DNA of 42,313 bases from assembly GCA_016872675.1 (NCBI GenBank), contig VGZG01000027.1:1-42313 (forward strand). The letters run 5' to 3'. Positions 1,453-31,000 of this stretch are shown here, in pieces. Positions within the stretch are counted from its first letter, which is position 1. Each line of letters starts with the position of its first letter. The translations under genes were made by a program, and so were the position numbers. Origin of the DNA: Planctomycetota bacterium. Lineage in GTDB: Bacteria > Planctomycetota > UBA1135 > UBA2386. The notes beneath the pieces were generated by a model that had not been told where the DNA came from, did not search any database, and saw only the letters and a program-made list of their open reading frames with translations.

Positions 1453-1608
1453 GTTTGCGGCCCCGGTGGCCGCGCCGGCGCCCGCGCGGGGTGCGCAAAC
1501 GCAACGGCTGGTATTCCCGCCGGCTATCCGCTAGGTTTCCGCGCACTCGCGCACCGCCACCGGTCGGCGGTTTGCGGGTTGGCATTGTCTGTACACGAGG
1601 GGGCACCC

Positions 1609-2268
1609 ATGAAGCACACCTTGACGCTCGCCGTGGCATTGTTCGCGGCTTCCTGCGTGAGTTCGGAACAACACCGCCGCATCGTCGGCGAGAAGAACGC
1701 GCTGCAGGCGCAACTCGCCAGCATGGCGGAGGCGCAGAAGACGCTGAGCGCGGAGAACGAGCGTTTGCGCAACCAGAACCGCGATCTGTCGGCGCGCGCG
1801 CTCGACGCCACCTACATCGCCGAGCAGAAGCAGAAACTCGCCGACCTGCTGGCCCGCTACGGCCAAGGCGCGCCAAGCGCGCAGAACGGCGTCGACGTCG
1901 TGCAGACGCCGGAGGGCATCGCCTTCCGCGTCGCCGGCGGCGTGCTGTTCGCTTCGGGCCAGAACGTCCTGTCCGAGTCGGGTCGGCGGACGCTGACCGA
2001 ACTCGCGACGCAGCTCACCAGCCGCAAGATCCGCATCGAAGGCCACACCGACGACGAGCCGATCGTCAACAGCAGTTGGGGCACCAACCTGCGCTTGTCG
2101 ATCGAGCGCTCGATGGTGGTCGCCGACTTCCTGACGGCCTCAGCGGGCCTGTCGAAGTCGAACGTGAGCGTCGCTGGCTACGGTGAGTACCGCCCGGCGG
2201 TCAACGGCGGGGACGACGTGTCGCGGTCGAAGAACCGCCGCGTCGAGATCCTGATGTTCGACCAGTAA
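1609..2268 (+). CDS. OmpA-family peptidoglycan-binding lipoprotein
   Basis: 219 residues from ATG 1609, preceded by ACGAGGGGG. Residues 1-15 form a lipoprotein signal ending in the lipobox 'FAASC', so Cys15 should be lipidated. Residues about 25-75 form a coiled coil rich in Glu, Gln and Leu ('EKNALQAQL', 'ENERLRNQNRDL'). The C-terminal ~110 residues are an OmpA_C-like domain: 'FASGQNVLSESGRRTL', 'IRIEGHTDDEPI', 'SIERSMVVADFL', 'VAGYGEYRP' and 'NRRVEI'. The GHTDD segment and the final NRR are the family's diaminopimelate-contacting region. The expected role is to tether an outer or inner membrane to peptidoglycan; a Pal- or MotB-like partner is possible. An upstream in-frame start would add a tail without a signal, so ATG 1609 is preferred. 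Confidence 0.88.
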   Translation: MKHTLTLAVALFAASCVSSEQHRRIVGEKNALQAQLASMAEAQKTLSAENERLRNQNRDLSARALDATYIAEQKQKLADLLARYGQGAPSAQNGVDVVQTPEGIAFRVAGGVLFASGQNVLSESGRRTLTELATQLTSRKIRIEGHTDDEPIVNSSWGTNLRLSIERSMVVADFLTASAGLSKSNVSVAGYGEYRPAVNGGDDVSRSKNRRVEILMFDQ

Positions 2269-12430: not shown

Positions 12431-13330
12431 GTGCGTTGCCTCGTCCGACGCGACACCTACGATGCCGCAGAACCGAGCTTCGCAAGGCATACCGCGTTGA
12501 ACACCTACCCGCGCTGTTTCGTCCGTTGGTTCGCCGCCTTCGTCCCCTGTCTGCTCGGCCTGCTCGCTGCCTGCGGCGGCTACGAGGACAAGCGCATTCG
12601 GGAACTGTTGCCCGAGAAGGGGTTCGGCGCGCGCGCCAGCGGTGACGCCACGGTCGAGAATTACGTCGGCGGTCGCGACGTGTTGCAGTTCCTATTGCCG
12701 CCGAGCGTGTTGGAGCAGCCCAATCTGGCGCGGCTGGCCGAGCTGACGGTGCCTCAGGCCATTGCGGTCGACGGCACCATCTTCGTGCCGTACGTCGGTC
12801 CGGTTGCGGTGCTCGGCAAGACGGAAGCCGAAGCGGCCGCGCTCGTCAATACGCAGTTGCGCGCGGCTGGCATCGCGCTCGACCTCGACATCCAGGCGCG
12901 CATCGTGCAGCTCAGCAGTTTCTCGCAGAAGTGGTTCTACGCCTACGGCGAGGTGGGGCTGCGCGGCCAGGTGCCGATTGAGACCGATCTCACGTTCTGG
13001 GACGCGATGAACACCTGCGGTTGGACGCCGCTCGCCAACCTCGGTCGCGTCTACTTGATCAAGCCCGACGCCGAGCACCCGCTGGTCATGGAGATCAACT
13101 TCCGCGAGATGATCACCACCGGCCTGACGGTGGCGAACGTGCCGATCCGCGAGCGCGACGTCATCTACGTGCCGTCGACGTTCCTAGGCCTCTTGGCACG
13201 ACTGCTGCAGCGCATGCTCGAGCCGATCGGCCTCGCCGTGCAAACGGCGCTCGGCATCGCCCAGACGCAGTACGCGTTCGACGTCATTCGCGGCGACGCG
13301 CCCAACAACGCGCTCTTCTTCCGCTACTGA
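12431..13330 (+). CDS. Polysaccharide export (Wza-like) lipoprotein
   Basis: 299 residues from GTG 12431, which has GGAGG three bases before it. TTG 12497 is an alternative and would give a more typical 25-residue signal before the lipobox 'LLAAC'. The mature protein has the polysaccharide export sequence domain: 'DVLQFLLPPSVLEQ', 'VAVDG.I.VPYVGPV.VLGKTEAEA', then an SLBB-like part 'WFYAYGEVGLRGQVPI', 'LTFWDAMNTCGW', and 'IRERDVIYVPSTFL'. Known members form the outer-membrane channel for capsule or exopolysaccharide; the C-terminal amphipathic helix ('LLARLLQRMLEPIGLAV') fits. It is first in the plus-strand operon and precedes the chain-length protein by 70 bases. Confidence 0.88.
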   Translation: MRCLVRRDTYDAAEPSFARHTALNTYPRCFVRWFAAFVPCLLGLLAACGGYEDKRIRELLPEKGFGARASGDATVENYVGGRDVLQFLLPPSVLEQPNLARLAELTVPQAIAVDGTIFVPYVGPVAVLGKTEAEAAALVNTQLRAAGIALDLDIQARIVQLSSFSQKWFYAYGEVGLRGQVPIETDLTFWDAMNTCGWTPLANLGRVYLIKPDAEHPLVMEINFREMITTGLTVANVPIRERDVIYVPSTFLGLLARLLQRMLEPIGLAVQTALGIAQTQYAFDVIRGDAPNNALFFRY

Positions 13331-13400
13331 TGCAGACCGTCGTCACGATGCCGCGACATGCCGCAGCGGGGCGCCGAGGGCGCCGCCGCGAGGGGGCGTC

Positions 13401-15005
13401 GTGACCCAGGTCGAACTGCCGCAGGTGTCGTTGCAACACTACGTCGACCTCGTGCGACGTCGGCGGTGGCAGCTGGTCCCGATCTCGCTGCTCGGCCTCG
13501 TGATCGGCGCCGTTGTCGCCTTCATGATCCCGCGCTACTACGTCGCCGAGGCCTCGATCGAGCACCAGGAGGTCGCGAGCGAGATGGAACGCGGCGACAA
13601 CCCGTTCAAGCGCATCGTCGACAGCGCCCAGGAGACTATCCGCCTGGATGCTGGCAAGGCTATGGAGGCTTTGAAGTGGCCGGAAGCGGCCATCAACGAT
13701 CCGAGCCTGCGCACGCTGGAGGTGGCGAAGGTCCGGTCGCGCCTCGTCGTGATCGACTCGAACGCCGGCGACAAGGCGCGCACGTATGCGCACATCCGCA
13801 TCCTCTTCAAGGACACGGACGCGAAACGCGCCGCCGACTTCGCCAATGCGCTCGTCGACACCTGGATCCAGGGGCGCGTGCAGAAGCTGCGCATCAGCCA
13901 CCAGGAGCAAATGACGCGCGCCAACGCCGACTTCACCGAGTGGGACCGCACGTACGAGCGCTATTTGCGTGAGAAGCAGGACCTCGAGGTGCGCTTCCGC
14001 ATCCGCCCCGACTTCGATCCGCGGATGCAGCAGGAGGAATTGCGGCGTCGTCAGGAAATTCAGCAGTCGCTGCGCGCGCAGTTGCGCGACCGCGAAACCA
14101 GGCTCACCACGCAGAAGGCGGAAGCCGAGCGCCTGCGCACCGCGCTGGCGGCGACGTCAGAGCGCGTTGCGCCGTCGCAGCGCGAACTGCTGGAAGCGGC
14201 TCGAACGCGGCCCGAACTTGCGCCGCTGCTCCTGCAGCTGCAGTTGGCGGTCGCCGGGCTCGAGGCCTGGAAGCCGGGCACGCGCGAGCGCAGCAAGCAG
14301 GAGCGAGAGATCACTCGCCTGCGCGACACCATCTTCACGGCGATGGCCCTCGACCTCGACGGCGACGGCAAGATCGCGAACCCGGCCCACGCCGAGCTGG
14401 TCAAGCTCTTGACGGCCTCGGTGGCCACCGGTGAGCAGCTCGCCGGCGAGTTGGGTCGCTTGCAGCGCGACATCGATGCCGACACCGCGGAACTCGAGCA
14501 ACTCGCCGAGGGCCATCGCCTGATCGAAGGCAAGCGCAAGGACCTCGAGACGACCGCCACCAAGCGCGCCGACGCCGCCGCGCGCCAGCAGAAGCAGGGC
14601 CAGTTCCTCTCGGCCCTGGAGCAGCAGTTGCCGGTGCAGCCGCTGCAGCGCGCGAGCCCGCCGCCGCACCCGACCGACCCAAACATCCTCGTCATCGCGT
14701 TGATCGGCGGGGTCCTCGGCCTCGGCGCCGCGATTGGTTTGCTCCTGCTACTCGACCTGTTGCAGGGCACCTTCAAGACCAGCGACGACGTCGAGCGCGC
14801 GCTCGGCGTGCAAGTGCTCGGGGCGATGAGCCACATGGAGACCGATGCCGAGCGGACGAGCACCGTTCGCAGCCGCCGTCGCGCCGGCGTCGCGGCCTTC
14901 CTGTTGATGGGCCTCGTGGTCGCGGTTGTCGTCGTCTACTACCGGGCGCCGACGCGCCTGCCGGGCCTCGTCCGCGACATGCTCGCTCTCATGCTGGGTG
15001 ACTGA
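13401..15005 (+). CDS. Wzz/GumC-like polysaccharide chain-length/co-polymerase protein
   Basis: 534 residues from GTG 13401. Residues 24-43 form the first membrane helix after a basic cytoplasmic tail ('YVDLVRRRRW'). Residues about 140-410 are long charged helices consistent with a periplasmic coiled coil ('LREKQDLEVRFRIRPDFDP', 'RETRLTTQKAEAERL'). A second helix lies near 430-455 ('ILVIALIGGVLGLGAAIGLL'), followed by 'KTSDDVERALGVQVLG', which in bacterial tyrosine-kinase co-polymerases leads into the kinase. Here the kinase is absent, and a third hydrophobic segment ('AAFLLMGLVVAVVVVYY') ends the protein. Expected role: controlling polymer length together with the Wza-like lipoprotein. Lacking a kinase, the regulation must differ from the BY-kinase type. 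Confidence 0.87.
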   Translation: MTQVELPQVSLQHYVDLVRRRRWQLVPISLLGLVIGAVVAFMIPRYYVAEASIEHQEVASEMERGDNPFKRIVDSAQETIRLDAGKAMEALKWPEAAINDPSLRTLEVAKVRSRLVVIDSNAGDKARTYAHIRILFKDTDAKRAADFANALVDTWIQGRVQKLRISHQEQMTRANADFTEWDRTYERYLREKQDLEVRFRIRPDFDPRMQQEELRRRQEIQQSLRAQLRDRETRLTTQKAEAERLRTALAATSERVAPSQRELLEAARTRPELAPLLLQLQLAVAGLEAWKPGTRERSKQEREITRLRDTIFTAMALDLDGDGKIANPAHAELVKLLTASVATGEQLAGELGRLQRDIDADTAELEQLAEGHRLIEGKRKDLETTATKRADAAARQQKQGQFLSALEQQLPVQPLQRASPPPHPTDPNILVIALIGGVLGLGAAIGLLLLLDLLQGTFKTSDDVERALGVQVLGAMSHMETDAERTSTVRSRRRAGVAAFLLMGLVVAVVVVYYRAPTRLPGLVRDMLALMLGD

Positions 15006-15017
15006 CCAGGGGCCGCA

Positions 15018-16388
15018 ATGCTGCGCGACGTCCTGGTCTTCGCGATCGTCCTGTTCTTGCTGCCGACCAGCATCCGTCGGCCGTTCGTCGGGCTGCTACT
15101 GTTCAGCTGGCTGGCGTACATGCGCCCGCAGGACCTGTGCTGGGGCTTCGCGCGCACGATGCGCATGTCGTTCTTTGTCGGCGTCGCCATGCTGCTCGGC
15201 TGGTGGGCCTACGAGAAGGGCTCACGACGGTTCGCCAAATGGGACGTGCGCAGCAATATGATGACGCTGCTCGCGGTGCTGGTGACGACCAGCTACGCCT
15301 TCGCCAGGCACCATGACGACTACACCAACACGTACTTCGTCGAGTTCCTGAAGATTGTCGTCGTCGCGCTGTTCACGACCGCTCAGGTGGACACGCGCGA
15401 ACGCTTTCGAATGGTGCTCTGGACGATCGCGATCTCGCTCGGCTTCTTCGGCGTCAAGAATGGCCTGATGGGCATCCTCAGCGGCGGGTCGCCGATCCTG
15501 CGCGGCCCTGGCGGCATGCTCGAGGACAACAACGACTTCGGCCTGGCCCTGGTCATGAACATTCCGCTGCTGTGGTACCTCGGCATCGACGACGGCCGCA
15601 GGTGGGTGCTGCGCGCCACGAAGGCGGCGGTGTGCCTGTCGCTGGTGACGATCGCGCTGACGCACAGTCGTGGCGCCTACCTGGCAGTGATGATTACCGC
15701 GCTGTGGATGGCGTGGCGGTCTGGCCACATCGTCCGCGCCGCCGCCGGTCTCGCCGCCGCTGCCGGCCTGTTCGTGCTGCTGGTGCCCGAGTCGGTCGTG
15801 GAGCGCCTAGCCTCGATTGGCGACACCCAGGATTCGTCGCGCAACGCGCGCCTCGCCGCGTGGTCGACGGCGATGCGCATGATCGGCGACAACCCGCTGT
15901 TCGGCGTCGGGTTGCGCAACTTCCAGCCACGCTACGCCGAGTACTCCACTGTGCCGCTGCAGCCCACCAGCACGACGTACGTCGCGCACAACAGTTACCT
16001 GCAGATCTGGGCGGAGAGCGGCAGTTTCGCCTTCGTCGCCTATTTGGTGCTGCTCGGATCGATCTTCGTGACCTGTCGGCGCATCGCGCTGATGGGGCGG
16101 GTCCGGCCCGACCTCGCCTGGGCCGCCAACTACGCGCGCATGATGGAGGCGACGACGATCGCCTTCCTCGTCGGCGCGTTCTTCCTCAACCGCGGCCACT
16201 TCGACCTCATCTACCAATGGGTCGCGTTGGTCACGGCGCTCGGCGCGATCGCCGGGGCGGCGTGGCGCGCGGCGCCAGATGGTCAGCGCGCCAGCTTCCA
16301 CCGCGGCGTGACCGTTCGGTGGGGCCGCGGCAGGGCGGCATTCACGCGCGCTGGCGCGGCGCTCGCCGTCGCGTCGAGGTGGCGCTGA
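15018..16388 (+). CDS. Exosortase-associated O-glycosylation ligase (Wzy/WaaL-like)
   Basis: 456 residues from ATG 15018, twelve bases after the previous stop. It is polytopic, with about ten hydrophobic segments (for example residues 2-28, 50-65, 195-215, 230-260 and 345-370). The opening, 'RRPFVGLLLFSWLAYMRPQDLCWGFA', is characteristic of the exosortase-A-associated putative O-glycosylation ligase family (shown here in two natural blocks). The central 'GPGGMLEDNNDFGLALVMN' and the large loop 'FGVGLRNFQPRYAEY' with 'AHNSYLQIWAESG' are the O-antigen ligase/polymerase signature, whose loop Arg and His residues act in transfer. Substrate polymer and acceptor are unknown. It overlaps the next gene as TGATG. 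Confidence 0.87.
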   Translation: MLRDVLVFAIVLFLLPTSIRRPFVGLLLFSWLAYMRPQDLCWGFARTMRMSFFVGVAMLLGWWAYEKGSRRFAKWDVRSNMMTLLAVLVTTSYAFARHHDDYTNTYFVEFLKIVVVALFTTAQVDTRERFRMVLWTIAISLGFFGVKNGLMGILSGGSPILRGPGGMLEDNNDFGLALVMNIPLLWYLGIDDGRRWVLRATKAAVCLSLVTIALTHSRGAYLAVMITALWMAWRSGHIVRAAAGLAAAAGLFVLLVPESVVERLASIGDTQDSSRNARLAAWSTAMRMIGDNPLFGVGLRNFQPRYAEYSTVPLQPTSTTYVAHNSYLQIWAESGSFAFVAYLVLLGSIFVTCRRIALMGRVRPDLAWAANYARMMEATTIAFLVGAFFLNRGHFDLIYQWVALVTALGAIAGAAWRAAPDGQRASFHRGVTVRWGRGRAAFTRAGAALAVASRWR

Positions 16389-18247
16389 TGTGCGGCATCG
16401 CCGGCCTGTTCGCGCTGCGCGCCGGGGCCGTCGCTGATCCGGCGCTCGCCGCGCGCATGGCCGCGCGGTTGCGGCACCGCGGGCCCGACGGCGCCGGCGT
16501 CTCGTCCGGGCCGGGCTTCGCGCTCGCGCACGCCCGCCTCGCCATCGTCGACATCGCCGGTGGCGCGCAGCCGATGGGCCTGCCCGACGGCTCGTTGTGG
16601 GTGACGTTCAACGGCGAGATCTACAACTATGAGGAATTGCGCCGTGAACTCGCCGCGCAGGGCGCGATCTTTCGCACCCGCAGCGACACCGAGGTGCTGC
16701 TGCACGGCTGGCGCGCTTGGGGCGAAGGCCTTGCTGCGCGCCTGCGCGGCATGTTCGCTTTCGCGCTGATCGACGTCGCGCGGCGCGAGCTGTACGCCGC
16801 GCGCGACCGCTTCGGCAAGAAGCCGTTCCACTGGCGCGAGCACGAAGGCGTGCTGGCCTTTGCGAGCGAGTTGAAGGCGCTGCACGAGCTCGGCGCGCCG
16901 CGCCGGTTGCGTCCGGCCGCGATCGCGCAGTTCCTCGCCCTGCGCTATGTGCCGGAGCCCGACACGGTGTTCGCAGGCGTGCACAAGCTGCCGCCGGCGC
17001 ATTGGTGTCGCTGGCGCCTCGGCGTCGGCGAACGCGAGCAGCGGCGCTACTGGCAGGTCGAGTACGGCGTCGACGACGCGCCGGAGGCGGCGCTGCAGGA
17101 GCAGACTCTGGCGCTGCTCGACGAGGCAGTGCGCATCCGCCTGATGGGCGAGGTGCCATTGGCGCCGTTCCTGTCCGGCGGCGTCGACAGCTATGCCATC
17201 GTCGACTCGATGACCCGAACGCAGGGCCGCGGCGTGACCGCATGCACGATCGGCTTCCCTGACCCGCAGTTCGACGAACGCCCGGGCGCCCGCGCCTCGG
17301 CGGCGGCCTGCGGCGCGCGTCTGGTCGAGGAAGTGCTCGATCCCGCTGCGCTGCTGCAGCTCGAGTGGCTGGCGGACACCTTCGACGAGCCGTTCAGCGA
17401 TAGCAGCGCGGTGCCGACGTACCACGTCTGCCGGTTGGCCCGGCGGCACGTCACCGTGGCGCTCGCCGGGGACGGTGGCGACGAGGCGTTCGGCGGCTAC
17501 CGCCGCTACCTGTTCGACGTGCAAGAGCATCGCGCCCGGCGCGTCGTGCCGCGTTGGGCGGCCCGCGCCGCCGGCGCGCTCTACCCGAAGGCCGACTGGC
17601 TGCCGCGCTGGCTGCGCGCCAAGCGCACGTTGCAGGACCTCGGCGCATCGCCCGCGGTCGCCTACGCGCGCTCGGTCAGCGCGCACCTGCCCGAAGAGGT
17701 GTTCGCGGTGCTGCGCCGCGATCGCATACCCGAGGTCGGCGATCCGCACGCGCCGTTGATCGCCGCCTACGAGTCGGCGCCGGCGACGCATCCGTTGCAC
17801 AAGGCCATCGCGACCGATCTCGCGACGTGGCTGCCCGGCGACATCCTGGTCAAGGCCGATCGCGTCTCGATGGCGGTCGCGCTCGAGGTGCGCGCGCCGT
17901 TCCTCGACCACCGCTTGTTCGAGCACGCCATGCGTGTACCGGCGGACAGCCACCTGCGGGGCGGCCGCACCAAGTCGTTCCTGCGCGAGGCGCTGGCGCC
18001 GCGCCTGCTGCCCGAGGCGCTCCGGCGCAAGAAGCAGGGCTTCGCGGTGCCGCTGCGGTCCTGGTGCAAGGGCGCCGTGGGCGACGCCGTCGCCGCGTCG
18101 CTGCGCGACGCGCCGTTGCGCGAGTGGATCGACACGGCCGCGGTCGAGCGGTTGTTGGCGCGGCACCGCGCCGGCGTCGGCGACCACGGCGAGATGCTGT
18201 GGGCGGTGCTGGTGCTCGGTCGCTTCCTCCGACGGTGGGCCGCATGA
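16388..18247 (+). CDS. Asparagine-synthase-like amidotransferase, exosortase-locus type
   Basis: 619 residues. Cys2 after the start Met is the glutaminase nucleophile ('MCGIAGLF'), and 'RHRGPDG' at 30-36 and 'FNGEIYNYEELR' near 75-86 complete the class II glutamine amidotransferase domain. The synthetase domain carries the ATP-pyrophosphatase loop 'SGGVDS' at 263-268, then 'LAGDGGDEAFGGYRRY' and 'DILVKADRVSMAVALEVRAP'. AsnB itself makes asparagine, but exosortase/PEP-CTERM loci carry a distinct paralogue near glycosyltransferases, probably amidating a sugar acid of the polymer. That role is inferred from position. Start ATG 16388 overlaps the ligase stop, and the end overlaps the next start as ATGA. 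Confidence 0.9.
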   Translation: MCGIAGLFALRAGAVADPALAARMAARLRHRGPDGAGVSSGPGFALAHARLAIVDIAGGAQPMGLPDGSLWVTFNGEIYNYEELRRELAAQGAIFRTRSDTEVLLHGWRAWGEGLAARLRGMFAFALIDVARRELYAARDRFGKKPFHWREHEGVLAFASELKALHELGAPRRLRPAAIAQFLALRYVPEPDTVFAGVHKLPPAHWCRWRLGVGEREQRRYWQVEYGVDDAPEAALQEQTLALLDEAVRIRLMGEVPLAPFLSGGVDSYAIVDSMTRTQGRGVTACTIGFPDPQFDERPGARASAAACGARLVEEVLDPAALLQLEWLADTFDEPFSDSSAVPTYHVCRLARRHVTVALAGDGGDEAFGGYRRYLFDVQEHRARRVVPRWAARAAGALYPKADWLPRWLRAKRTLQDLGASPAVAYARSVSAHLPEEVFAVLRRDRIPEVGDPHAPLIAAYESAPATHPLHKAIATDLATWLPGDILVKADRVSMAVALEVRAPFLDHRLFEHAMRVPADSHLRGGRTKSFLREALAPRLLPEALRRKKQGFAVPLRSWCKGAVGDAVAASLRDAPLREWIDTAAVERLLARHRAGVGDHGEMLWAVLVLGRFLRRWAA

Positions 18248-19416
18248 GCCGTATCGTCACGTTCACCAGCCTGTTCCCGTCGTCGGTCGCGCCGACGCAC
18301 GGCCTCTTCGTCCACGATCGCATGCACCGCGTCGCCGCGCGCGGCGGCTTCGCTTGGCAGGTGGTCGCGCCGGTCCCCGACGTCGTCTGGCCGCTGCGCC
18401 CCGCCGGCTGGCGCTGTGGGCGCGCCACGCCGCTGGGCGAGGCGTGGGAAGGCGTCGAGGTCGCGCACCCGCGCTGGCGCCATTGGCCCGGCATGATCCG
18501 GCGGCAGGCGCGCGCGATGGCTGCGGGCGCGCGCGCCATGGTCGCCGCGCTCGCGGCGCGCGAGCCGATCGTGCTCGACGCGCACTACCTCTGGCCCGAC
18601 GGCGTCGCCGCCGCGACGTTGGCCCGTGAACTGGGCATTCCGTACACGCTGACCGCCCGCGGCACGGACGTGAACGTGCTGGCGCAGCGCCCGGCCTTGC
18701 GCGCGCGCATCGCCGAAGCGGCCGCCAGCGCGCACGGTTGCTTCGCGGTCAGCGGCGCGCTCGCCGCGCGCTTCGCCGAAGCCGCGGGCCTGCCGTCGTC
18801 GCGCGTCGAGGTGGCCCGCAACGGCGTCGACCTCGCGCGCTTCCGCCCCGGCGACGCGGCGACCGCGCGCGCGGCGCTCGAGCTGCCGGCCTGCGGCTTC
18901 CTCGTCCTGTGCGTCGGCCGCCTCGTCGCCAGCAAGGGCTTTGTCACGGCGGCGAAGGCGATGGCGGCGTTGCCCGACGACGCGCGCCTCGTCGTGATCG
19001 GCGAGGGCCCAGAGCGCGGCGCGATCGCCGCCGCCTTGCCGTCGACGATCTTCCTGGGTCCGCAGCCGCCGGCGCGCGTCGCGCTTGCCTGCCAGGCGTG
19101 CGACGCGCTGGCGCTGCCGAGCGAGCGCGAGGGTTGGCCCAACGTTGTCACCGAAGCCTTGGCGAGCGGCCTGCCGGTCGTCGCCACGCCGGTCGGCGGC
19201 ATTCCGGAGATCCTCGGCGAGGCGCCGCCGCCGTGGCTCGGCGCTCTTTGCCCGGTTGGCGACGTCGCGGCGTTCGGGCGCGCATTTGCGGCCCTGGCCA
19301 CGTCGCCGCCGGCGCGGGCGCAGGTGCGCGCGCACGCTGAACGCTTCGGCTGGGACGAACCGGTGGCGCGCCTCTGCGACGTGTTCCGCGCCGCGCTCGC
19401 CAGGAGGATCGTGTGA
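18244..19416 (+). CDS. GT4-family glycosyltransferase
   Basis: 390 residues, GT-B fold. The N-terminal half has 'SLFPSSVAPTHGLFVHDR' and an acceptor-binding domain with 'DAHYLWPDGVAAATLAREL' and 'TLTARGTDVNVL'. The C-terminal donor-binding half has 'VARNGVDLARFRPGD', 'VGRLVASKGF', 'VVIGEGPERGAIAAA' and the retaining GT4 signature 'LPSEREGWPNVVTEALASG' followed by 'VVATPVGGIPEI'. It should add a sugar to a lipid-linked intermediate on the cytoplasmic face; donor and linkage cannot be predicted. It is coupled at both ends (ATGA at 18244, GTGA at 19413) with the amidotransferase and the next transferase. Confidence 0.9.
   Translation: MSRIVTFTSLFPSSVAPTHGLFVHDRMHRVAARGGFAWQVVAPVPDVVWPLRPAGWRCGRATPLGEAWEGVEVAHPRWRHWPGMIRRQARAMAAGARAMVAALAAREPIVLDAHYLWPDGVAAATLARELGIPYTLTARGTDVNVLAQRPALRARIAEAAASAHGCFAVSGALAARFAEAAGLPSSRVEVARNGVDLARFRPGDAATARAALELPACGFLVLCVGRLVASKGFVTAAKAMAALPDDARLVVIGEGPERGAIAAALPSTIFLGPQPPARVALACQACDALALPSEREGWPNVVTEALASGLPVVATPVGGIPEILGEAPPPWLGALCPVGDVAAFGRAFAALATSPPARAQVRAHAERFGWDEPVARLCDVFRAALARRIV
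19402..19407 (+). promoter_or_regulatory. Full Shine-Dalgarno AGGAGG for the second glycosyltransferase
   Basis: AGGAGG lies five bases before GTG 19413 and inside the end of the previous gene. It fixes the GTG start, which overlaps the upstream TGA. Few genes in this window have such a strong site. Confidence 0.6.
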
Positions 19417-20600
19417 GCGCGCCGCGCGTGCTGTACCACCATCGGATCCGCGCCGACGACGGCCAGGCCGTGCACGTGCGCGAGATGATCGCCGCGCTGC
19501 GCGCTAGCGGCTGTGCTGTCGACGAGTGCGCGCTGGTGCGCAAGGGCCGCGGCGACGCCGACGCCTCGGCCGCGGGCGCTGGCGGCGGCTTCTGGCACAA
19601 GCTGTCGCTGCCGCGGACCGCGGTCGAGGCGCTCGAGATCCTCTACAACCGGCGCGGTCGCGTGATGCTGCGCGCCGCGGCGGCGCAGCAGCGGCCCGAC
19701 TTCGTCTACGAGCGGCACGCGCTGCACTGCCGTGCCGGCCTCGACGCCGCGCGCGCGCTCGGCGTGCCGCTGCTGCTCGAGGTCAACTCGCCGATGACGG
19801 TCGAGATGGCGAAGCTCGGCAAGCTGCGCTTCCCGGCCCGCGCGCGCGCCACCGAGCGGCTCGTGCTCGCCGGCGCCGACGCCGTGCTGGCGGTCACGCA
19901 GACACTGGCCGACATGCTCGTCGAACTTGGCGCGCGCCGCGAGCGCGTGCGGGTGATCGGCAACGGCGCCGATCCGGCCCGCTACGGCGGCGACGCGGTC
20001 GCGGCCGCCGCTTCGGCCCGCGCCCGCTGGGGCCTGCCCGCGGATGCGTTCGCGCTCGGCTTCGTCGGCTACATGCGTGACTGGCATCGCCTCGACCTCG
20101 TGCTCGACGCGATGGCGAAGCCCGAACTGGCGACGCTCGCGCTCGTGCTGATGGGCGAGGGGCCGGCGCTGGCGCCGTTGCTCGCCAGCGCGTCGGCGCG
20201 TGGCCTCGCCGAAAGGGTGCGAGCGCTCGGCGTCGTGCCGCCCGAACTGCTGCCTATGCACGTGCTGGCGTGCGACGGCGCGCTGATCCCGGCGATCAAC
20301 GCCTATGCGTCGCCGTTGAAGCTCTTCGACTCGCTGGCCGCCGGTGTGCCGACCGTCGCGCCCGACCAGCCCAACCTGCGCGAGACTTTGGTCCACGGCG
20401 ACACCGGCCTGCTGTTCCGTCCCGGCGACGCCGACGACCTCGCGCGGCAGCTAGCGCGCCTCGTCGGCGACCGCGCCGGCGCCCGCGCGCTCGGCGCCCG
20501 CGGTCGCGCGGCCCTGCACGCGCAGCAATGGACGTGGCAGGGCAACGCCGGTCGCGTCCTCGAGGTGTTCGCCGGCCTGCGGCGGGGAGGCCTCGCATGA
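19413..20600 (+). CDS. GT4-family glycosyltransferase
   Basis: 395 residues from GTG 19413. The opening 'VLYHHRIRADDGQAVHVREM' matches the exosortase-locus transferases that begin with a 'H.R....G..VHI.E' loop binding the nucleotide sugar. Later motifs are 'YERHALHCRAGLDAARALG', 'VLLEVNSP', 'VIGNGADPARYGGD', 'LGFVGYMRDWHRLDLVLDAM', 'LMGEGPALAPLL', and the donor site 'LIPAINAYASPLKLFDSLAA', where the 'SPLK.FE..A' type replaces the usual 'PS..EG'. The fold is GT-B and the mechanism retaining. It works in the same pathway as its upstream neighbour. The next gene starts within its stop (ATGA) behind GGGGAGG. Confidence 0.9.
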   Translation: MSAPRVLYHHRIRADDGQAVHVREMIAALRASGCAVDECALVRKGRGDADASAAGAGGGFWHKLSLPRTAVEALEILYNRRGRVMLRAAAAQQRPDFVYERHALHCRAGLDAARALGVPLLLEVNSPMTVEMAKLGKLRFPARARATERLVLAGADAVLAVTQTLADMLVELGARRERVRVIGNGADPARYGGDAVAAAASARARWGLPADAFALGFVGYMRDWHRLDLVLDAMAKPELATLALVLMGEGPALAPLLASASARGLAERVRALGVVPPELLPMHVLACDGALIPAINAYASPLKLFDSLAAGVPTVAPDQPNLRETLVHGDTGLLFRPGDADDLARQLARLVGDRAGARALGARGRAALHAQQWTWQGNAGRVLEVFAGLRRGGLA

Positions 20601-22108
20601 ACGTCGCATTGGCCGTGTTCCTGCCGGTCGTCGTCGCCTACTGGACGGCGCTGCAGTGGTGCGCCGACCGCTGGAACGCGCCGACCGAGTACTTCGCGCA
20701 CTGCTGGCTGCTGCCGCCGGTCGCCGCGTGGTTGCTGTGGTCGCGCCGCTCCGAGTGGTCGGCGCGGCCGCGTGCCGTCGATCCAAGGGGCTGGCTGCTG
20801 CTCGGTCCGGCGCTGCTGCTGCACCTCGCCGGCGCGGCGCTGATGGTGGACTCGTGGTCGGCGGCGAGCCTCGTGCTGGCCGTGCCCGGCACGGCGTGGT
20901 TGGCGCTCGGCCGCGAGCGGCTGCGCGGCCTGTGGCCCGTGCTGTGGCTGGCGGCGTTCTGCGTGCCGCTGCCGATGTACGTCGAGGGCCGGCTCGCCTA
21001 CACGCTCAAGGAGGTCGCTCTCGCCGGCGGATCGTGGCTCGCCAACCTCGCCGGCGCCGACGTCGTGCGCGCCGGCGACATGCTGCAGCCGCGCGGCGTC
21101 GACGGCGCGCTGTACGTCGCCGACGCCTGCAGCGGCCTGCGTTCGTTGCTGGCGATGCTGACGTTGGCGTACTGCCTCGCGTTCTTCCTCGGCGCGCCGC
21201 GGCCGGCGCGGCGGGCGACGCTGCTGCTGGCGGCGCCGGTGATGGCGGTCGTGGCCAACGTCGCGCGCATCGCCGTGCTGTGCCTGTTCGCGCGCTGGCA
21301 CGGCGTGGCCTTCGCTGAGGGCTCGGGTCACACGCTCGCCAACGCGGTCGAATGGGCGACCCTGGTGCTGGCGCTGCTCGGACTCGATGCGCTCGCCTTC
21401 GGTCGCGGCGCCGGCGCGACGCCCGCGGCCCCGGCCACGCCGCCGCCGCCGCCGCGCCGGCTCGCCCCGCACGCGGCGGCGCTTTGGTTGCTGGCCGCGC
21501 CGCTCCTGCTGCTGTCGCTGCACCGGCCGCTGGGCAACGCCACCGATCGCGCCGAGCGCTTGCCTGCCGAGGTCGCCGGGTACCGCCTCGCGCCGCGCAC
21601 GGCCGAGCAGGAGGCGCAGTTCGTGAAGAACCTGCCGCGCTGGCGCGAACTGCTCGGCACGTCCGACTTCGTCTGGCGGCGGTACGACGACGCGGCGGGC
21701 AACCCGTTGTGGGTCGTCGCCCTGTTCCACGACGCCAACTGGAAGAGCGTGCACCCGCCGCGCATCTGCATCGAAGGCAGCAACATGGACATCCTGCAGG
21801 ACGACCTCGCGCCATTTCCCGAGCTCGGCGCCGGTTGCTCGGCCGGCCGGATCGTCGCGCAGAGCCGCAGCGATGGCTGGCGCTACGTCACGATGAGCCT
21901 GTACGGGACCGCCGACTGGTCGTCGGGCGACTACTGGGACTTCACGCTGCACCACCTGCCGCGCGCGCTCGTCCGCGCCAATATGTCGGGCTTCCTGCTG
22001 CGCGTCGAGGCCGCCGTGCAGGCGGGCGAGGAACCGGCGGCGGCGGAGGAGCGGGCGCGTCGCTTCCTCGTGGCGCTCGCGCCGCTGGCGCAGGAGCTGT
22101 CGCGATGA
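20597..22108 (+). CDS. Exosortase fused to EpsI domain
   Basis: 503 residues from ATG 20597, with GGGGAGG six bases before it. Residues 1-265 are a polytopic exosortase: the catalytic triad is visible as Cys178 in 'DACSGLRSLLAM', Arg224 in 'NVARIAVLCLF' and His245 in 'GSGHTLANAVEW', lying near membrane helices as in archaeosortases and exosortases. A Pro-rich linker (275-288) and a membrane helix (293-308) lead to an EpsI domain with 'LPAEVAGYRL', 'FHDANWKSVHPPRICIEG' (His386, Cys391) and 'ADWSSGDYWDFTLHHL'. Exosortases cleave a C-terminal sorting signal and probably transfer the protein to a cell-surface acceptor. EpsI is usually a separate protein. The substrate is not in this window. Confidence 0.93.
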   Translation: MNVALAVFLPVVVAYWTALQWCADRWNAPTEYFAHCWLLPPVAAWLLWSRRSEWSARPRAVDPRGWLLLGPALLLHLAGAALMVDSWSAASLVLAVPGTAWLALGRERLRGLWPVLWLAAFCVPLPMYVEGRLAYTLKEVALAGGSWLANLAGADVVRAGDMLQPRGVDGALYVADACSGLRSLLAMLTLAYCLAFFLGAPRPARRATLLLAAPVMAVVANVARIAVLCLFARWHGVAFAEGSGHTLANAVEWATLVLALLGLDALAFGRGAGATPAAPATPPPPPRRLAPHAAALWLLAAPLLLLSLHRPLGNATDRAERLPAEVAGYRLAPRTAEQEAQFVKNLPRWRELLGTSDFVWRRYDDAAGNPLWVVALFHDANWKSVHPPRICIEGSNMDILQDDLAPFPELGAGCSAGRIVAQSRSDGWRYVTMSLYGTADWSSGDYWDFTLHHLPRALVRANMSGFLLRVEAAVQAGEEPAAAEERARRFLVALAPLAQELSR

Positions 22109-22992
22109 CCATCGCGCACGCGCTCACCGTCGACGTCGAGGACTGGTTCCAGGTCCTCAACATGGCGCACGTCGTCGATCGCGCCGAGTGGGACGCCTTC
22201 CAGCTGCGCTGCGGCGACTCGACCCGGCGCTTGCTCGACCTGTTCGCGAAGCGCGATGCGCGCGCGACGTTCTTCTTCCTCGGCTGGGTCGCCGAACGGC
22301 TGCCCGATCTCGTGCGCGAGGTGAAGGCGGCAGGCCACGAGATCGGCAGCCACGGCTTCGACCACCGGCTCTTGCACGACCTCGGCCGCGACGGCTTCCG
22401 CGACGACGTCGCCCGCACCGCGACGACGCTGGCGGCGATCACCGGCGAACGCCCGCGCGCCTTCCGCGCCTGCACGTGGTCGATCACGCGGCGCACGCCG
22501 TGGGCGATCGACGAGCTGCTGGCGGCTGGCTACACGATCGACAGTTCGATCCAGCCGGTTCGACACCCCGACTACGGCGTGCCGGGCGCGCCGACGCTGC
22601 CGTACCGGCTCGCCGGCGCCGGCGGTTCCTTGCTCGAACTGCCGCCCTTGACGCTCGAAGCCCTCGGCCGGCGTCTGCCCGTCGGCGGCGGCGGCTACCT
22701 GCGGCTGTTCCCGCTCGCGCTGTTGCGCGCCGGCCTGCGCCAGAAGGAACGGCTGGGGGCGCCGGGATGCGTCTATCTGCACCCGTGGGAAGTCGATCCG
22801 GAGCAACCGCGTCGGCGACTCGGCGGCTTGCGCGGCTTCCGCCACTACGTCAACCTCGGCAAGACCTACGCCAAGCTCGACGGCCTGCTGCGCGACTGGC
22901 GCTGGGTCGGCGTCGGGGAAGCGCTCGCTCAGGGCAGCGCCAGTTGGTTGGCGAATCTGCCGGCGTTGCGCGCGAGCGAACTGCTCGGATAG
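22105..22992 (+). CDS. Exosortase-system polysaccharide deacetylase (NodB-like)
   Basis: 295 residues. It begins with the exosortase-type signature 'LTVDVEDWFQVLNMA', in which the Asp residues bind metal and act as base. 'ATFFFLGWVAERLP' and 'GHEIGSHGFDHRLLHDL' supply the metal His pair. The segment normally 'FRAPSFSI' reads 'FRACTWSITRRTPWAID'. The C-terminal part has 'PVGGGGYLRLFPLALLR' and 'YLHPWEVDPEQPR', then the DUF3473-like tail. Family members deacetylate N-acetylated sugars of an exopolysaccharide. ATG 22105 overlaps the exosortase stop. Its last 64 bases overlap the end of the convergent repeat-protein gene. Confidence 0.92.
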   Translation: MTIAHALTVDVEDWFQVLNMAHVVDRAEWDAFQLRCGDSTRRLLDLFAKRDARATFFFLGWVAERLPDLVREVKAAGHEIGSHGFDHRLLHDLGRDGFRDDVARTATTLAAITGERPRAFRACTWSITRRTPWAIDELLAAGYTIDSSIQPVRHPDYGVPGAPTLPYRLAGAGGSLLELPPLTLEALGRRLPVGGGGYLRLFPLALLRAGLRQKERLGAPGCVYLHPWEVDPEQPRRRLGGLRGFRHYVNLGKTYAKLDGLLRDWRWVGVGEALAQGSASWLANLPALRASELLG

Positions 22993-26948: not shown

Positions 26949-28331
26949 TCAGCGGATGCCGAGCCGGCGCAGTTTGTGGAACAGCGTGCTGCGGTCGATG
27001 CCGAGCTCCTTGGCGGCGCGCTCGCGATTGCCGCCACAGCGCGCGAGGCGCAGTTCGATGATCCGCTTCTCGGACGCTGCGAGCGCGTCGCGCAGCGGCA
27101 GGGCGCCGATGTCGGCGTCGGCGGTCGCGGCCGTCGCAGCCGCGTTGCCGCCGCGCGTGGCTGGCGCGCGTCCAAACGTCGGTAGGTCGACAACATCGAT
27201 TGCCGTGCCCTCGCCGAGCACGACGGCGCGCTCGATGACGTTCTCCAGCTGCCGAACGTTGCCGGGCCACTGTGCCTCCGACAGCGCCGCGAGCGCGGCG
27301 GGGGTGAAGCGGGTCACCGGCTTGCCGTGCTCGGCGGCGAAGCGGCGCAGGAAGTGCTGCGCCAGCGGCGCAATGTCGGCGGCGCGGTCGCGCAGCAGCG
27401 GCATCTCCAGCGCGACGACGTGGATGCGGTAGTAGAGGTCTTCGCGGAACTCGCCGGCGGCGACCGCCTGCTCGAGGTTCTTGTTGGTTGCCAGCACGAT
27501 GCGCACGTCGACCGGGATCGTCTTGGTTTCGCCGACGCGCTCGATGACGCGGTCCTGCAGCACGCGCAGCAGCTTGACCTGGAACGCGGGCGAGATCGTG
27601 CCGATCTCGTCGAGGAAGATCGTGCCGCCGTGCGCCGCCTCGAACTTGCCGACCTTGTCCTTGACCGCGCCGGTGAACGAGCCGCGGATGTGGCCGAACA
27701 ACTCGCTCTCCAGCAGCGACTCTGGCAGGGCCCCGCAATTGACCTCGATGAACGGGCCCCTGCTGCGGGCGCTGAGTTGGTGCAACGCGCGGGCGACCAT
27801 CGTCTTGCCGGTGCCTGACTCGCCGGTGATCAGCACCGTCGTCTTGGTCGGGGCGACGGCGCGCACCGTCTTGAAGATTGCCTGCATGCGCGGGTCGCTG
27901 CCGACGACGTTGTCGAGCCGCAAGCGATCGTCGAGCGCTGACTTGAGTTCCTGGTTCTCGCGCTGCAGCGCCGCCTTCGCGAGCACGCGATCGATGGCGA
28001 CGAGGATCTGATCGGGGGTGTACGGCTTGCCGAGGAAGTCGGCCGCACCATGACGCATCGCCTGCACGGCGTCCTGCACCGAGCCGAACGCCGACATCAG
28101 CACGACGGCGACGTCGGGGTGCGACTGCTGGATCTCGTGCAGCAACTTCATGCCGCCGCCTCCTGGCAGGGCGAGTTCGCAGAGCACGAGATCGACGTCG
28201 TCGTCGGTCAGCGGCGCCAGCGCGGACGGCACGTCGCGCGCGGCGTCGAGTTCGAAGCCATTCCGTTGCAGCAGCGCTTGCAGTTCCTGTTGGGCGCGGG
28301 GATCGGGGTCGGCGACGAGGATGCGGGCCAT
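26949..28331 (-). CDS. NtrC-family sigma-54 activator with degenerate receiver (PrsR-like)
   Basis: 460 residues. The N-terminal receiver (1-118) keeps Asp8, Ser80 and Lys102, but the phospho-acceptor position is Glu52 (codon GAA at 28178-28176) in 'DLVLCELALPG', where 'D.RMPG' is expected. The AAA+ domain has Walker A 'GESGTGK' at 170-176, the sigma-54-contacting loop 'GSFTGA' at 217-222 (usually GAFTGA), Walker B 'GGTIFLDEIG', and 'WPGNVRQLENVIERA'. A Fis-type HTH ends it ('NRERAAKELGIDRSTLFHKL'). Exosortase loci often contain such a regulator (PrsR) with a kinase PrsK; no kinase is seen here. It is co-transcribed with the repeat protein and divergent from the DUF58 operon. Confidence 0.93.
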   Translation of the reverse strand: MARILVADPDPRAQQELQALLQRNGFELDAARDVPSALAPLTDDDVDLVLCELALPGGGGMKLLHEIQQSHPDVAVVLMSAFGSVQDAVQAMRHGAADFLGKPYTPDQILVAIDRVLAKAALQRENQELKSALDDRLRLDNVVGSDPRMQAIFKTVRAVAPTKTTVLITGESGTGKTMVARALHQLSARSRGPFIEVNCGALPESLLESELFGHIRGSFTGAVKDKVGKFEAAHGGTIFLDEIGTISPAFQVKLLRVLQDRVIERVGETKTIPVDVRIVLATNKNLEQAVAAGEFREDLYYRIHVVALEMPLLRDRAADIAPLAQHFLRRFAAEHGKPVTRFTPAALAALSEAQWPGNVRQLENVIERAVVLGEGTAIDVVDLPTFGRAPATRGGNAAATAATADADIGALPLRDALAASEKRIIELRLARCGGNRERAAKELGIDRSTLFHKLRRLGIR

Positions 28332-28470
28332 GGTCGTTGGGTCGGAATTCGGCGACGGTGTCGCGGGAATGCGACGGGGTCGACATCGGCCGACGGCGGC
28401 GGGTGTCTGGAGTCAGTCCCACGGTTCTCTGGCGGTGGCCCTGGGGCTAGCCTCTGCGGCTCCGCCGCCG
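28332..28470. other. Divergent intergenic region between regulator and DUF58 operon
   Basis: This 139-base region must hold both promoters. GTCGC and GCGAC flank GGGAAT at 28360-28375. No -24/-12 (TGGC-N8-TTGC-type) element for sigma-54 was found by eye, and no clean sigma-70 pair. Confidence 0.35.
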
Positions 28471-29424
28471 ATGCCGTTCCGCCTGCCTTGGACCGCCGCA
28501 AGTCGCGCTGCCGCATCGGCTCCCGAGGAGTCGCTGGCGGACGCGCTGGCATCGGTCCGCCGCCTCGAAATGGCGCCTGGCCGGCTGGTGACCGACGTGC
28601 TGGCCGGCGGCTTCCGCTCGTCGTTCCGCGGCGGCGGCTTGGAGTTCAGCGACGTGCGCGAGTACGTCGAGGGCGACGACCCGCGCTCGGTCGATTGGAA
28701 CGTCACCGCGCGCATGGGTCGGCCGTTCGTCAAACGCTTCGTCGAGGAGCGTGAGCGCACGCTGGTGTTCGTGCAGGACCTCGGCGCTTGCATGCAGGCG
28801 GGACTCGGCGCGTGGTCAGTTCGCCAACTCGGTGCGCGCGTCGCCGCGTGCCTGTGCCGCATGGCGATCGACAACCACGATCGCGTTGGGTTGTTCGCCG
28901 GTGTCGCTGGCGACGAGCGCCTGGTGCCGCCGAAGAAGGGTCCGGGCCACGTGCTGCGCGTGCTGCGGGACGTCGTCGAGGCGCCGCTGCGCCCGAGCCG
29001 CGCCAACCTGCCGGCGATGCTCGCCGCCGTCGGCGGCCGTCTGCGCCGCCGCGCGGTGGTCTTCGTGCTGTCGGACTTCGCCGGGACCGCGCCGATTGCC
29101 AGCCTGTCGACGATCGCGCGCCGGCACGACGTTGTCTGCGTGCGCCTGTTGGCGCGCGAACTGGTCGCGCCGCCGCGCGCGTTGTTCGACGTCATCGACC
29201 CGCGCGGCGGGCGCGCGGCGACGATCGACTTCACTGCCGAGCCGGTTCGCGCCGCCTGGGCTGCGCGCGTCGCCGTGTGGCGACGGGCGCGCGCCGAGGA
29301 GATCGCCCGCGCCGGCGCCGACGGCTTCGACGTGGTGGCGCCGGAGAAGGCCGACGCGGATGCGATCGGCCAGCCGCTCGCGCGCTTCTTCCGGCGTCGG
29401 TCGCTGCAGGGCGCGACGCGATGA
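28471..29424 (+). CDS. DUF58-domain protein with degenerate MIDAS
   Basis: 317 residues from ATG 28471, the first start consistent with the family's N-terminus. The DUF58 core is clear: 'GGFRSSFRGGGLEFSDVREY', then 'GDDPRSVDWNVTARMGRPFVKRF' in its usual position (cut here to the visible pattern G-D-D-x-R-x-x-D-W). It is followed by a von Willebrand A-like fold ('TLVFVQDLGACM', 'VVFVLSDFAG'). The MIDAS motif, normally D-x-S-x-S, reads D-L-G-A-C, so metal binding by this site is doubtful. DUF58 proteins act with MoxR AAA+ ATPases and Bat proteins in envelope stress functions. Here no MoxR gene precedes it; the neighbour is the divergent sigma-54 activator. It is coupled to the next gene through ATGA. 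Confidence 0.88.
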   Translation: MPFRLPWTAASRAAASAPEESLADALASVRRLEMAPGRLVTDVLAGGFRSSFRGGGLEFSDVREYVEGDDPRSVDWNVTARMGRPFVKRFVEERERTLVFVQDLGACMQAGLGAWSVRQLGARVAACLCRMAIDNHDRVGLFAGVAGDERLVPPKKGPGHVLRVLRDVVEAPLRPSRANLPAMLAAVGGRLRRRAVVFVLSDFAGTAPIASLSTIARRHDVVCVRLLARELVAPPRALFDVIDPRGGRAATIDFTAEPVRAAWAARVAVWRRARAEEIARAGADGFDVVAPEKADADAIGQPLARFFRRRSLQGATR

Positions 29425-29930
29425 GCCAGGGACCGCAAGGTGGCGGGCCGGTGGTGCTCGAGTGGCCCGGCGACTTGCGCGACCTGCCGGCGGCCGGCGG
29501 CGTGTGGTATTGGCTGGCTGCACTGAGCGTCGCTGCGGCGGCGCTGGCGTGGTGGGCGTGGCGGCGGCGATCGCCGTCGGCCGCGGCGCCGATCGTTGCG
29601 TCGACAGCGACTCTACGCACGCCGGATGCGGCGGCGTGGCTGCGCGCGCTCGCGCTGCCCGCCGATGCTGCGGCGACCGTGGTGTTCGCCGCCAAGGTCA
29701 AGCGGATCGTGCGCTTGCGCGCTTGGTATCAATGGGCGCTCGCGGCCGAGCTCATGACCAGCGAAGAACTGCAGCGCTATCTGCCGGCGGCTCCCGGTCT
29801 GGCGCCGTGCCTCGGCGCCTGCGACCGGGTGCTGTTCGCGAACGGCAGCCTGGACGCTGACGCCGCCGCAGCAGTGCGCGCACAGGCCATCGCTTTCGTC
29901 GAGTACGCCCCAGAGCCAGGAACCTCATGA
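29421..29930 (+). CDS. DUF4381-like membrane protein of the Bat operon
   Basis: 169 residues. After a Gly/Pro-rich start comes 'LRDLPAAGGVWYWLAALSVA', a membrane helix at about 28-48 ending in 'WWAWRRR', a stop-transfer-like basic cluster. The remainder is helical and cytoplasmic by the positive-inside rule ('VKRIVRLRAWYQWALAAELM'). DUF4381 proteins sit between DUF58 and the BatA gene in many MoxR/Bat operons; their role is not known. Identification rests on that order, on size and on the 'L.DI..P....WWP' type opening, which is only partly kept here. Both ends overlap neighbours as ATGA. Confidence 0.7.
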   Translation: MSQGPQGGGPVVLEWPGDLRDLPAAGGVWYWLAALSVAAAALAWWAWRRRSPSAAAPIVASTATLRTPDAAAWLRALALPADAAATVVFAAKVKRIVRLRAWYQWALAAELMTSEELQRYLPAAPGLAPCLGACDRVLFANGSLDADAAAAVRAQAIAFVEYAPEPGTS

Positions 29931-31000
29931 GCCCGGCCATCGCAGCGCATACGAGCGCGACAAGCGCCATCGGGTCCGCGGCGGCCGTGGGCGAAATGGC
30001 GGCAGCCGTGCCCGGCGTCGCGCTGCAGGCGCCCGGCGCGCTCGCGCTCGCCGTGCTCGTGGTGGCGGCCGCGGCCTATCGCAATTGGCGCCGGCCGCGC
30101 GTGCCGTTCGCCGGCATGCAGCTGCTGGCCGATGCCGCCGAACTGCCGCCGCTGCCGACAACGTGGCGCGCGCGCCTTTCGGCGCTGCCGGCATGGTGCG
30201 AACTGCTCGCGGCGCTGGCGTTGGTCGTCGCACTAGCGCGGCCGGTCGAGCGCGTGCCGGCGCCAACGCCGCCGCCGGGGCGCGACCTGCTGCTGTGCCT
30301 CGACATCAGTTCGTCGATGGCGGCGAGCGACCTCGATCCGCAGCGCTCGCGCCACGCCGTCGGCCAGGCGCTGGCCGAACGCTTCGTGCGCGCGCGCGCC
30401 AGCGACCGCATCGGCCTCGTCGCCTTCGCCCGCTACGCCGACCTCGTCTGCCCGCCGACGCGCGACCACGAGGCGCTGGTGACGGCGCTGCGCGGTGTGC
30501 GCATGGTGTCGAAGGACGGCGCCGAGGACGCGACGGCGATCGGCGCCGCGGTCGGGAAGGCGGCGGCGTCGCTGGCCGGCGTGGATGGCGCCGCCAAGGT
30601 CGTCATCGTGGTCACCGACGGCGAGGAGAACGTCAGCAACAAGCTGCAGCCGAACGAGGTGGCGCCGCTGCACGCGGCTCAGGCGTGCGCCGCCGCCGGC
30701 ATTCGCGTGCACGCCGTCGTCGTCGGCCGCGGCAACCAGAAGCCGGATGGCCGCTTCGTGGCGCTTGACACCACGGCGGTGCAGCAACTGGCGAGCACGA
30801 CCGGCGGCCGCAGTTGGCTGTGTGAGGACGAGGCTGCGCTCGCCGAGGTGTATGCGCTCATCGACGCACTCGAAGCCGACGCGACGCCGCCGCCCGGCGT
30901 GGTCGCGCGCGAACGCTTCGCCGTGGCGCTGTTGGTCGCCGCTGTCGCCGCGGCTTTGGCGCGGTTGCTGCGGGCGCTCGGCCTGCGGAGGCTGCCGTGA
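29927..31000 (+). CDS. batA: BatA-like von Willebrand A membrane protein
   Basis: 357 residues. Membrane helices are expected at about 36-52 ('GALALAVLVVAAAAY'), 90-105 ('CELLAALALVVALA') and near the C-terminus ('FAVALLVAAVAAALARLL'). The vWA domain between them has an intact MIDAS: 'LCLDISSSMAASDLDP' (D-x-S-x-S), 'EDATAIGAAVGKA' with the Thr, and 'VVIVVTDGEENVS' with the Asp. The BatA helix-domain-helix layout is standard, with the vWA domain facing the periplasm. BatA-E proteins were named for aerotolerance in Bacteroides, but their biochemical role is unsettled. The GTG of the next gene overlaps this stop. Confidence 0.88.
   Translation: MSPAIAAHTSATSAIGSAAAVGEMAAAVPGVALQAPGALALAVLVVAAAAYRNWRRPRVPFAGMQLLADAAELPPLPTTWRARLSALPAWCELLAALALVVALARPVERVPAPTPPPGRDLLLCLDISSSMAASDLDPQRSRHAVGQALAERFVRARASDRIGLVAFARYADLVCPPTRDHEALVTALRGVRMVSKDGAEDATAIGAAVGKAAASLAGVDGAAKVVIVVTDGEENVSNKLQPNEVAPLHAAQACAAAGIRVHAVVVGRGNQKPDGRFVALDTTAVQQLASTTGGRSWLCEDEAALAEVYALIDALEADATPPPGVVARERFAVALLVAAVAAALARLLRALGLRRLP

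Follow-up and report, generated by a model that had tools for sequence, protein, structure and literature searches.

The closest described counterparts of the system reported here are the PEP-CTERM/exosortase systems of the XrtA/EpsH kind. According to the accessible part of Haft 2006 (PMC1569441), a re-analysis points to signal peptides in 97% of PEP-CTERM proteins, genomes have a median of eight substrates, which are diverse, and a number of EpsH proteins bear a C-terminal region homologous to EpsI. What exosortases attach, and how PEP-CTERM proteins hold exopolysaccharide (EPS), are described as unsettled in the portions of PMC11980579 and PMC12188702 available to us. Here we analyze a 42,313-nucleotide contig of a Planctomycetota bacterium (VGZG01000027.1, assembly GCA_016872675.1; hereafter the window), which is numbered C27 among the 182 contigs of a 95%-complete, 3.58-Mb draft genome and which encodes within a polysaccharide operon an exosortase carrying an EpsI domain. 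What appears to be new in this PEP-CTERM/exosortase system, judging from the proteins predicted across related genomes, is a recurrent pair of minimal substrates, one of them a predicted lipoprotein. With most genomes of one family sharing the same two minimal substrates, one with a predicted lipid anchor, a general tether model becomes testable.

Two minimal PEP-CTERM families

Two PEP-CTERM proteins exceed the cut-off in this genome, L003 (contig C48) and L004 (contig C16); both also pass TIGR02595, and no named substrate family is over cut-off for either. The original prediction, made from the letters of the window and concerned with its exosortase, had looked to the genome for C-terminal sorting signals matched to the subtype of that enzyme; the signals are there, without a subtype name. 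In L004 a lipobox Cys (IAGC) opens a run of 82 residues (Cys included) rich in Gly/Pro/Thr, which leads into the PEP-CTERM tail. L003 carries a hydrophobic signal-like segment, from which a rough cleavage rule leaves roughly 19 residues to the tail, and its gene (1878-2246 of its locus, plus strand) is divergent to the RNase P RNA gene. A third PEP-like tail, L008 (contig C51, about 1489-1650, minus strand), falls under the cut-off at E 9.98 and ends a short frame; the tail is like that of the large PEP-CTERM proteins found in relatives G001, G002 and G007, the adjoining frame resembles, by eye, the body of those in G001 and G002, and body and tail are out of frame with one another in this assembly. 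It is either an apparently broken third substrate or an assembly error. Three other sub-threshold candidates were rejected, L005 and L007 because both lie inside longer frames, and L006 because it ends in a hydrophobic segment without PEP.

A PF07589 search of 41 related genomes returned 63 matches spread over 30 genomes, each with between one and five, and every match was mapped to a frame. From the mapped frames and neighbor checks these were assigned by eye to class L (lipobox, Gly/Pro/Ser linker, PEP-CTERM; the class of L004; 28 loci), class S (signal-like segment, short linker, PEP-CTERM; the class of L003; 23 loci) or neither (12 matches, which stay in the denominator of 63). The class L loci comprise 21 recognized by a strict lipobox rule, six that fail it (L045, L049, L061, L064, L065 and L084), and L040, which is truncated at a contig start. 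By a hand-made tally (22, 20 and 20 of 25), class L is present in 22 of the 25 genomes of the family, one of them with a truncated copy, and class S in 20, always together with class L. The family genomes with neither are G002, G007 and G018, which are 72, 56 and 73% complete. Seventeen of the 18 family genera sampled have class L.

The two classes are distinct in design and neighborhood. Class L linkers span 51-116 residues, 73% of them G/S/T/P/N/Q (27 proteins); class S linkers are mostly short, the rough cleavage rule giving no site in L063. Their tails are also separable, with the nearest neighbor in the same class for 42 of 43, and the sole misfit is a G005 gene with PQP instead of PEP, which we kept in class S because the RNase P gene adjoins it. 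At 17 of the 20 class S loci searched with Rfam, L003 among them, the class S gene and that of the RNase P RNA are divergent neighbors, the three loci without a match (L054, L060 and L063) being short stretches cut by contig ends, two of which still have the start motif; overall, the RNase P start motif lies beside class S at 22 of 23 loci compared to 0 of 68 comparison loci. We read this arrangement as a stable gene order and attach no functional meaning to it. Class L is found beside an RluD-like motif at 15 of 28 loci. Class L and class S thus look like two families of likely orthologs, not a changing set.

The twelve unclassed matches comprise large proteins in G001, G002 and G007, what may be a fragment in G016, six small genes that adjoin second exosortases, one match in G037, and one foreign-looking match in G005. 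Three large PEP-CTERM-tailed proteins (L039, L056 and L076) appear von Willebrand/VIT-like by eye. The contig of L079 (G005:C84), which has a PVPEASTLAL tail, is 7.9 kb long and is probably foreign, the genome having 6% contamination. Second, weaker exosortases occur in some relatives (L069, G010:C180; L088, G001; L089, G022; L097, G005) with tiny TPEP- or APEP-tailed genes adjoining, three in G010 and one each in G001, G005 and G022; these likely constitute a dedicated side system.

A lipobox on PEP-CTERM proteins

As expected of a bacterial lipoprotein, L004 has a hydrophobic segment and, directly after it, a lipobox Cys close to the N terminus. A strict sequence rule for the lipobox recognizes 21 of the 63 PEP-CTERM matches in the 41 relatives, compared to 2 of 74 examined elsewhere in the phylum, or 20/56 and 2/63 once frames running off the sequence are set aside; the Fisher value for this contrast (1.1e-6) ignores the relatedness of the genomes. 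The comparison set is not random, its 74 matches from 30 genomes having been hand-picked among the higher-scoring of 383 in 42 genomes outside the window's family, where some of the counts behind 383 are lower bounds and the phylum sample is 119 genomes. The two outside cases, in G044 and G055, are both L-like in design, and in G055 an S-like protein accompanies it. In the open-access literature, where most matches were seen as listings, we found no description of a lipobox-bearing PEP-CTERM protein. We predict that L004 and the other class L proteins are bacterial lipoproteins, lipidated at the N-terminal Cys.

The exosortase-EpsI protein

The protein presumed to act on these tails is encoded in the window as follows.

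20597..22108, plus strand: exosortase-EpsI fusion protein, 503 residues; open frame, ATG to stop
20627..21388, plus strand: exosortase domain PF09721, residues 11-264; profile match
21128..21130, plus strand: codon of predicted catalytic Cys178; conserved 30/30
21266..21268, plus strand: codon of predicted catalytic Arg224; conserved 30/30
21329..21331, plus strand: codon of predicted catalytic His245; conserved 30/30
21476..22090, plus strand: EpsI / DUF3485 domain, residues 294-498, with conserved His386 and Cys391; PF11984 match

Profile matches to PF09721 (157.4 bits, cut-off 25.7), PF11984 (DUF3485; 42.1, cut-off 26.1) and the TIGR02602 exosortase model (113.4, cut-off 105.55) all pass, and the EpsI equivalog model TIGR02914 scores 25.8 bits, under its cut-off of 42.8. 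The original prediction of one intact chain with Cys178, Arg224, His245 and an EpsI domain is borne out by the frame, the profiles and an alignment in which the triad is kept in 30 of 30 exosortases, the window's own included; the catalytic role of these residues is predicted. A placement among the exosortase subtypes, which had also been anticipated, did not follow: no subtype model is over cut-off, the best being XrtD (TIGR04152) at 141 of 400, and a named subtype was dropped. The XrtA model TIGR03109 scores 126.9 bits, under its cut-off of 208, and we therefore label the protein XrtA-like, not XrtA. Nor was any meaningful relative of solved structure found by sequence (best E 0.5).

Two circumstances had been named in advance as fatal to the fusion, and neither applies. 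A frameshift or assembly artifact splitting the domains is ruled out by the same fusion in an independent record, L009 (JADCJE010000066.1, a Phycisphaerales metagenome-assembled genome), which aligns over the whole length with 405 of 507 columns identical (80% identity). A second exosortase or EpsI that might be the functional pair is likewise rejected, a profile search of this draft genome having found neither.

We surveyed the state of EpsI in the 30 best exosortase loci, one per genome, from the 41 related genomes. EpsI is fused to the exosortase in 20 loci and is a separate neighboring gene directly after it in seven, five recognized by Pfam and two (G019 and G021) by an H-x4-C motif; in the remaining three (G018, G032 and G040) none was seen within the stretches read. 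Pfam did not detect EpsI in G001, though L009, whose genome appears to be G001 (the same match coordinates recur under G041), aligns full length with the window protein. All 20 fused EpsI domains have the equivalents of His386 and Cys391, and a matching His and Cys occur in all seven separate EpsI read. The fused or separate state requires at least three changes on the exosortase tree, in which G019 and G021 are unlabeled and several deep branches are weak. The fusion flagged by the original prediction is real and by itself ordinary; as a novelty it is rejected, having already been described in PMC1569441 as far as the accessible text of that paper goes. All 28 EpsI matches among the 41 relatives lie in or beside an exosortase match, and this constant adjacency does argue that exosortase and EpsI work together.

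Structure prediction, suggested earlier for the two domains together, was more confident for one of them taken alone. The EpsI domain alone (residues 314-503, two-row alignment) gave a model with a mean predicted local distance difference test score (pLDDT) of 75.3, and the full-length AlphaFold model, also from a two-row alignment, has a mean of 47.5 and is a pointer only. VIA-align matched the EpsI model to DcrB (Z 8.1, root-mean-square deviation 2.8, 105 aligned), cyanobacterial PsbP (7.9), MTC28 (7.4), Mog1 (7.3) and SciW (6.6), which we take to share one broad fold. SciW, a chaperone and a lower match, has a structure whose entry title names a bound transmembrane segment, a hint and nothing stronger that EpsI could hold on to the PEP-CTERM helix. 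Such a fold would fit a binding role for EpsI and says nothing on glycan.

The operon and its surroundings

The exosortase-EpsI gene belongs to an operon of eight plus-strand genes (12431 to 22992). Its other members, and two genes downstream of the operon and convergent to it, are as follows.

12431..13330, plus strand: Wza-type polysaccharide export protein; PF02563 30.9 bits, cut-off 28
13401..15005, plus strand: chain-length determinant, Wzz/TIGR03007-like; TIGR03007 67.5 (under 278.85), PF02706 21.5 (under 25.5)
15018..16388, plus strand: putative O-glycosylation ligase, exosortase A system, TIGR03097; 265.3 bits, cut-off 188.1
16388..18247, plus strand: XrtA/PEP-CTERM-type amidotransferase, AsnB-like; TIGR03108 628 (under 816.9), TIGR01536 435.4 (over 267.1)
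18244..19416, plus strand: GT4 glycosyltransferase; PF00534 and PF13439 in a scan of the longer frame 17554-19416
19413..20600, plus strand: GT4 glycosyltransferase; profile scan, overlaps both neighbors
22105..22992, plus strand: polysaccharide deacetylase with DUF3473; PF01522 76.7 bits, PF11959 132.3 bits
22929..26903, minus strand: 1324-residue protein, N-terminal hydrophobic segment, no family over cut-off in profile scan; possible PrsT counterpart
26949..28331, minus strand: sigma-54 response regulator, PrsR-like; TIGR02915 419 (under 502.6), AtoC model higher at 459.8 (under 714)

Profile scans uphold the neighbors first named from the sequence (two glycosyltransferases, an amidotransferase, an O-ligase and a deacetylase), and the overlaps that had suggested translational coupling are real: the last six genes overlap at five junctions, by 1 base at 16388 and by 4 bases at 18244, 19413, 20597 and 22105. 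Describing the operon as complete went too far, since profile scans of its eight genes matched no initiating transferase or flippase family; two PF02397 initiating transferases are encoded elsewhere in the genome, on contigs C31 and C76. The C76 gene passes TIGR03013, an XrtA/PEP-CTERM system family, as the ligase in the operon passes TIGR03097.

All eleven window proteins tested have matches in L009, in the same order. The core order of ligase, amidotransferase, glycosyltransferases, exosortase-EpsI and deacetylase is also kept in L099-L103, as far as those stretches reach, and is thus conserved in six relatives; G027 (L102) has an extra glycosyltransferase-like match ahead of the amidotransferase. 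The 1324-residue protein has a match at the same place in L009, L099, L100 and L103, and none at the locus in L101 or L102. The 3' end of its gene overlaps the deacetylase gene on the opposite strand, both here and in L009. No PrsK-type kinase turned up among the window open reading frames scanned, which were not all of them. Farther along the window (28150-31977, plus strand), a DUF58 protein followed by two VWA proteins forms a BatA/BatB-like cluster.

Proposed mechanism and alternatives

We consider it somewhat probable that the window encodes an XrtA-like, EPS-associated exosortase with a fused EpsI that processes class L and class S, with class L serving as a glycan tether. Sec would export both proteins; class L would be lipidated at its Cys, and the PEP-CTERM tail would remain in the inner membrane. 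The exosortase, as expected for its family, would cut at PEP through Cys178, and the acyl-enzyme on Cys178 could pass the new C terminus to the operon-made glycan or a lipid-linked precursor. Class L would become a short, flexible tether joining lipid to polymer through its two ends, and class S would be its counterpart without lipid. EpsI probably holds a substrate at the active site, either the acceptor or the PEP-CTERM segment. We propose with fair confidence that the exosortase cleaves the tails of class L and class S after Sec export, with less confidence that cleavage is transfer of the new C terminus to the operon's glycan or a lipid-linked precursor, and, as a more tentative proposal, that the glycan made by the operon is tethered to the cell by class L.

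Several observations weigh against this reading. Both PEP-CTERM genes lie on other contigs, outside the operon, and besides the two substrates there may be a third, broken one (L008). Single relatives have up to five PEP-CTERM matches, six of 27 class L proteins, which fail the strict lipobox rule, owe their placement to inspection by eye, and G012 and G017 carry class L only. Among incomplete genomes, G018 has an exosortase and no PEP-CTERM match, and G002 and G007 have a PEP-CTERM match and no exosortase match. The resemblance of the EpsI model to PsbP/Mog1/DcrB-type folds comes with middling Z values; Foldseek gave no match to it at E <= 0.001, and the top rows by E are unrelated-looking PYR1-type receptors with root-mean-square deviations around 15, DcrB being third. 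A simple consensus scan for the sigma-54 promoter that precedes substrates in the proteobacterial form of the system found no strict -24/-12 site at L003 or L004 (one loose match lies well upstream of L003, on the far side of the RNase P gene), leaving co-regulation by the PrsR-like protein unsupported, and a search of the genome for LolA gave nothing at E <= 0.1, leaving outer-membrane delivery unsupported. In a more elaborate polymer-linking proposal, a dedicated exosortase-EpsI would build a lipid-anchored glycan by joining the small PEP-CTERM lipoprotein to the polymer as a disordered, covalent Gly-rich tether, with the unlipidated second substrate as a free form and EpsI presenting the tail helix; taken as a whole, we regard that version as speculative and unlikely.

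It may be instead that this is a plain instance of the known system, in which an XrtA-like exosortase, by hydrolysis or with some minor modification, sets two small proteins free in the matrix; the lipobox would then be incidental and the proteins would carry no glycan. This fits the gene content here and what Haft 2006 describes in the accessible part of PMC1569441, and no computed result shows a glycan link. Yet low-complexity class L linkers and mostly short class S linkers leave these proteins with no obvious function as released matrix proteins, and they nonetheless recur as two families; we hold this explanation to be a serious if rather doubtful one. The interpretation originally offered, that EpsI accepts or positions the polymer and that fusion fixes the ratio of protein sorting to glycan transfer, can draw on a real fusion, real gene overlaps and the unbroken association of EpsI with exosortases across the 41 genomes. 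It is hard to reconcile with relatives that keep EpsI as a separate gene at the same place, which removes a fixed ratio as a general rule, or with the repeated changes of state on the exosortase tree; nothing links EpsI with glycan, and we think this interpretation quite improbable.

Less probable again, and by our judgment very much so, is that the two proteins are what is left of a reduced system, a reading suggested by Haft 2006 for genomes with one or two of them. Counts of 1-2 are within the range that PMC1569441, in its accessible text, treats as possible noise or remnants, and this genome does contain a third tail out of frame with its body. Against decay stand the presence of class L in nearly every family genus sampled (17 of 18), with conserved tails and neighbors, and an exosortase triad intact in 30 of 30.

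Comparison with known systems

With XrtA/EpsH and EpsI (TIGR02602, TIGR03109, TIGR02914) the window protein shares the exosortase family, the triad, and an EpsI that is fused or adjacent; the wider system shares an EPS operon with a TIGR03097 ligase, amidotransferase and deacetylase, as well as PEP-CTERM substrates and a PrsR-like regulator. It differs in that the protein falls under the XrtA and TIGR02914 cut-offs, that one substrate family bears a lipobox, and that two substrates are over cut-off here, compared to the published median of eight per genome (PMC1569441, accessible text). The XrtD, VPLPA-CTERM exosortase model (TIGR04152) matches at near full length, including the C-terminal domain, with 141 bits; however, this is far under the cut-off of 400, and VPLPA-CTERM scores 14 on L004, where its cut-off is 25.35, and has no listing for L003. 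Cyanoexosortase B and the hormogonium polysaccharide model (PMC12188702, in the portion available) likewise place an exosortase in an EPS locus and propose a polymer-holding role, but with a larger substrate set, only a fraction of which is tied to functions, and the word 'lipoprotein' occurs 0 times in the main text of that paper. The Myxosortase/MYXO-CTERM system (PMC11980579, in its accessible part) also has a C-terminal tag and a product proposed to be lipid-anchored, although its protease is unrelated and its lipid is proposed to sit on a Cys of the C-terminal tag, whereas the lipobox of class L is N-terminal.

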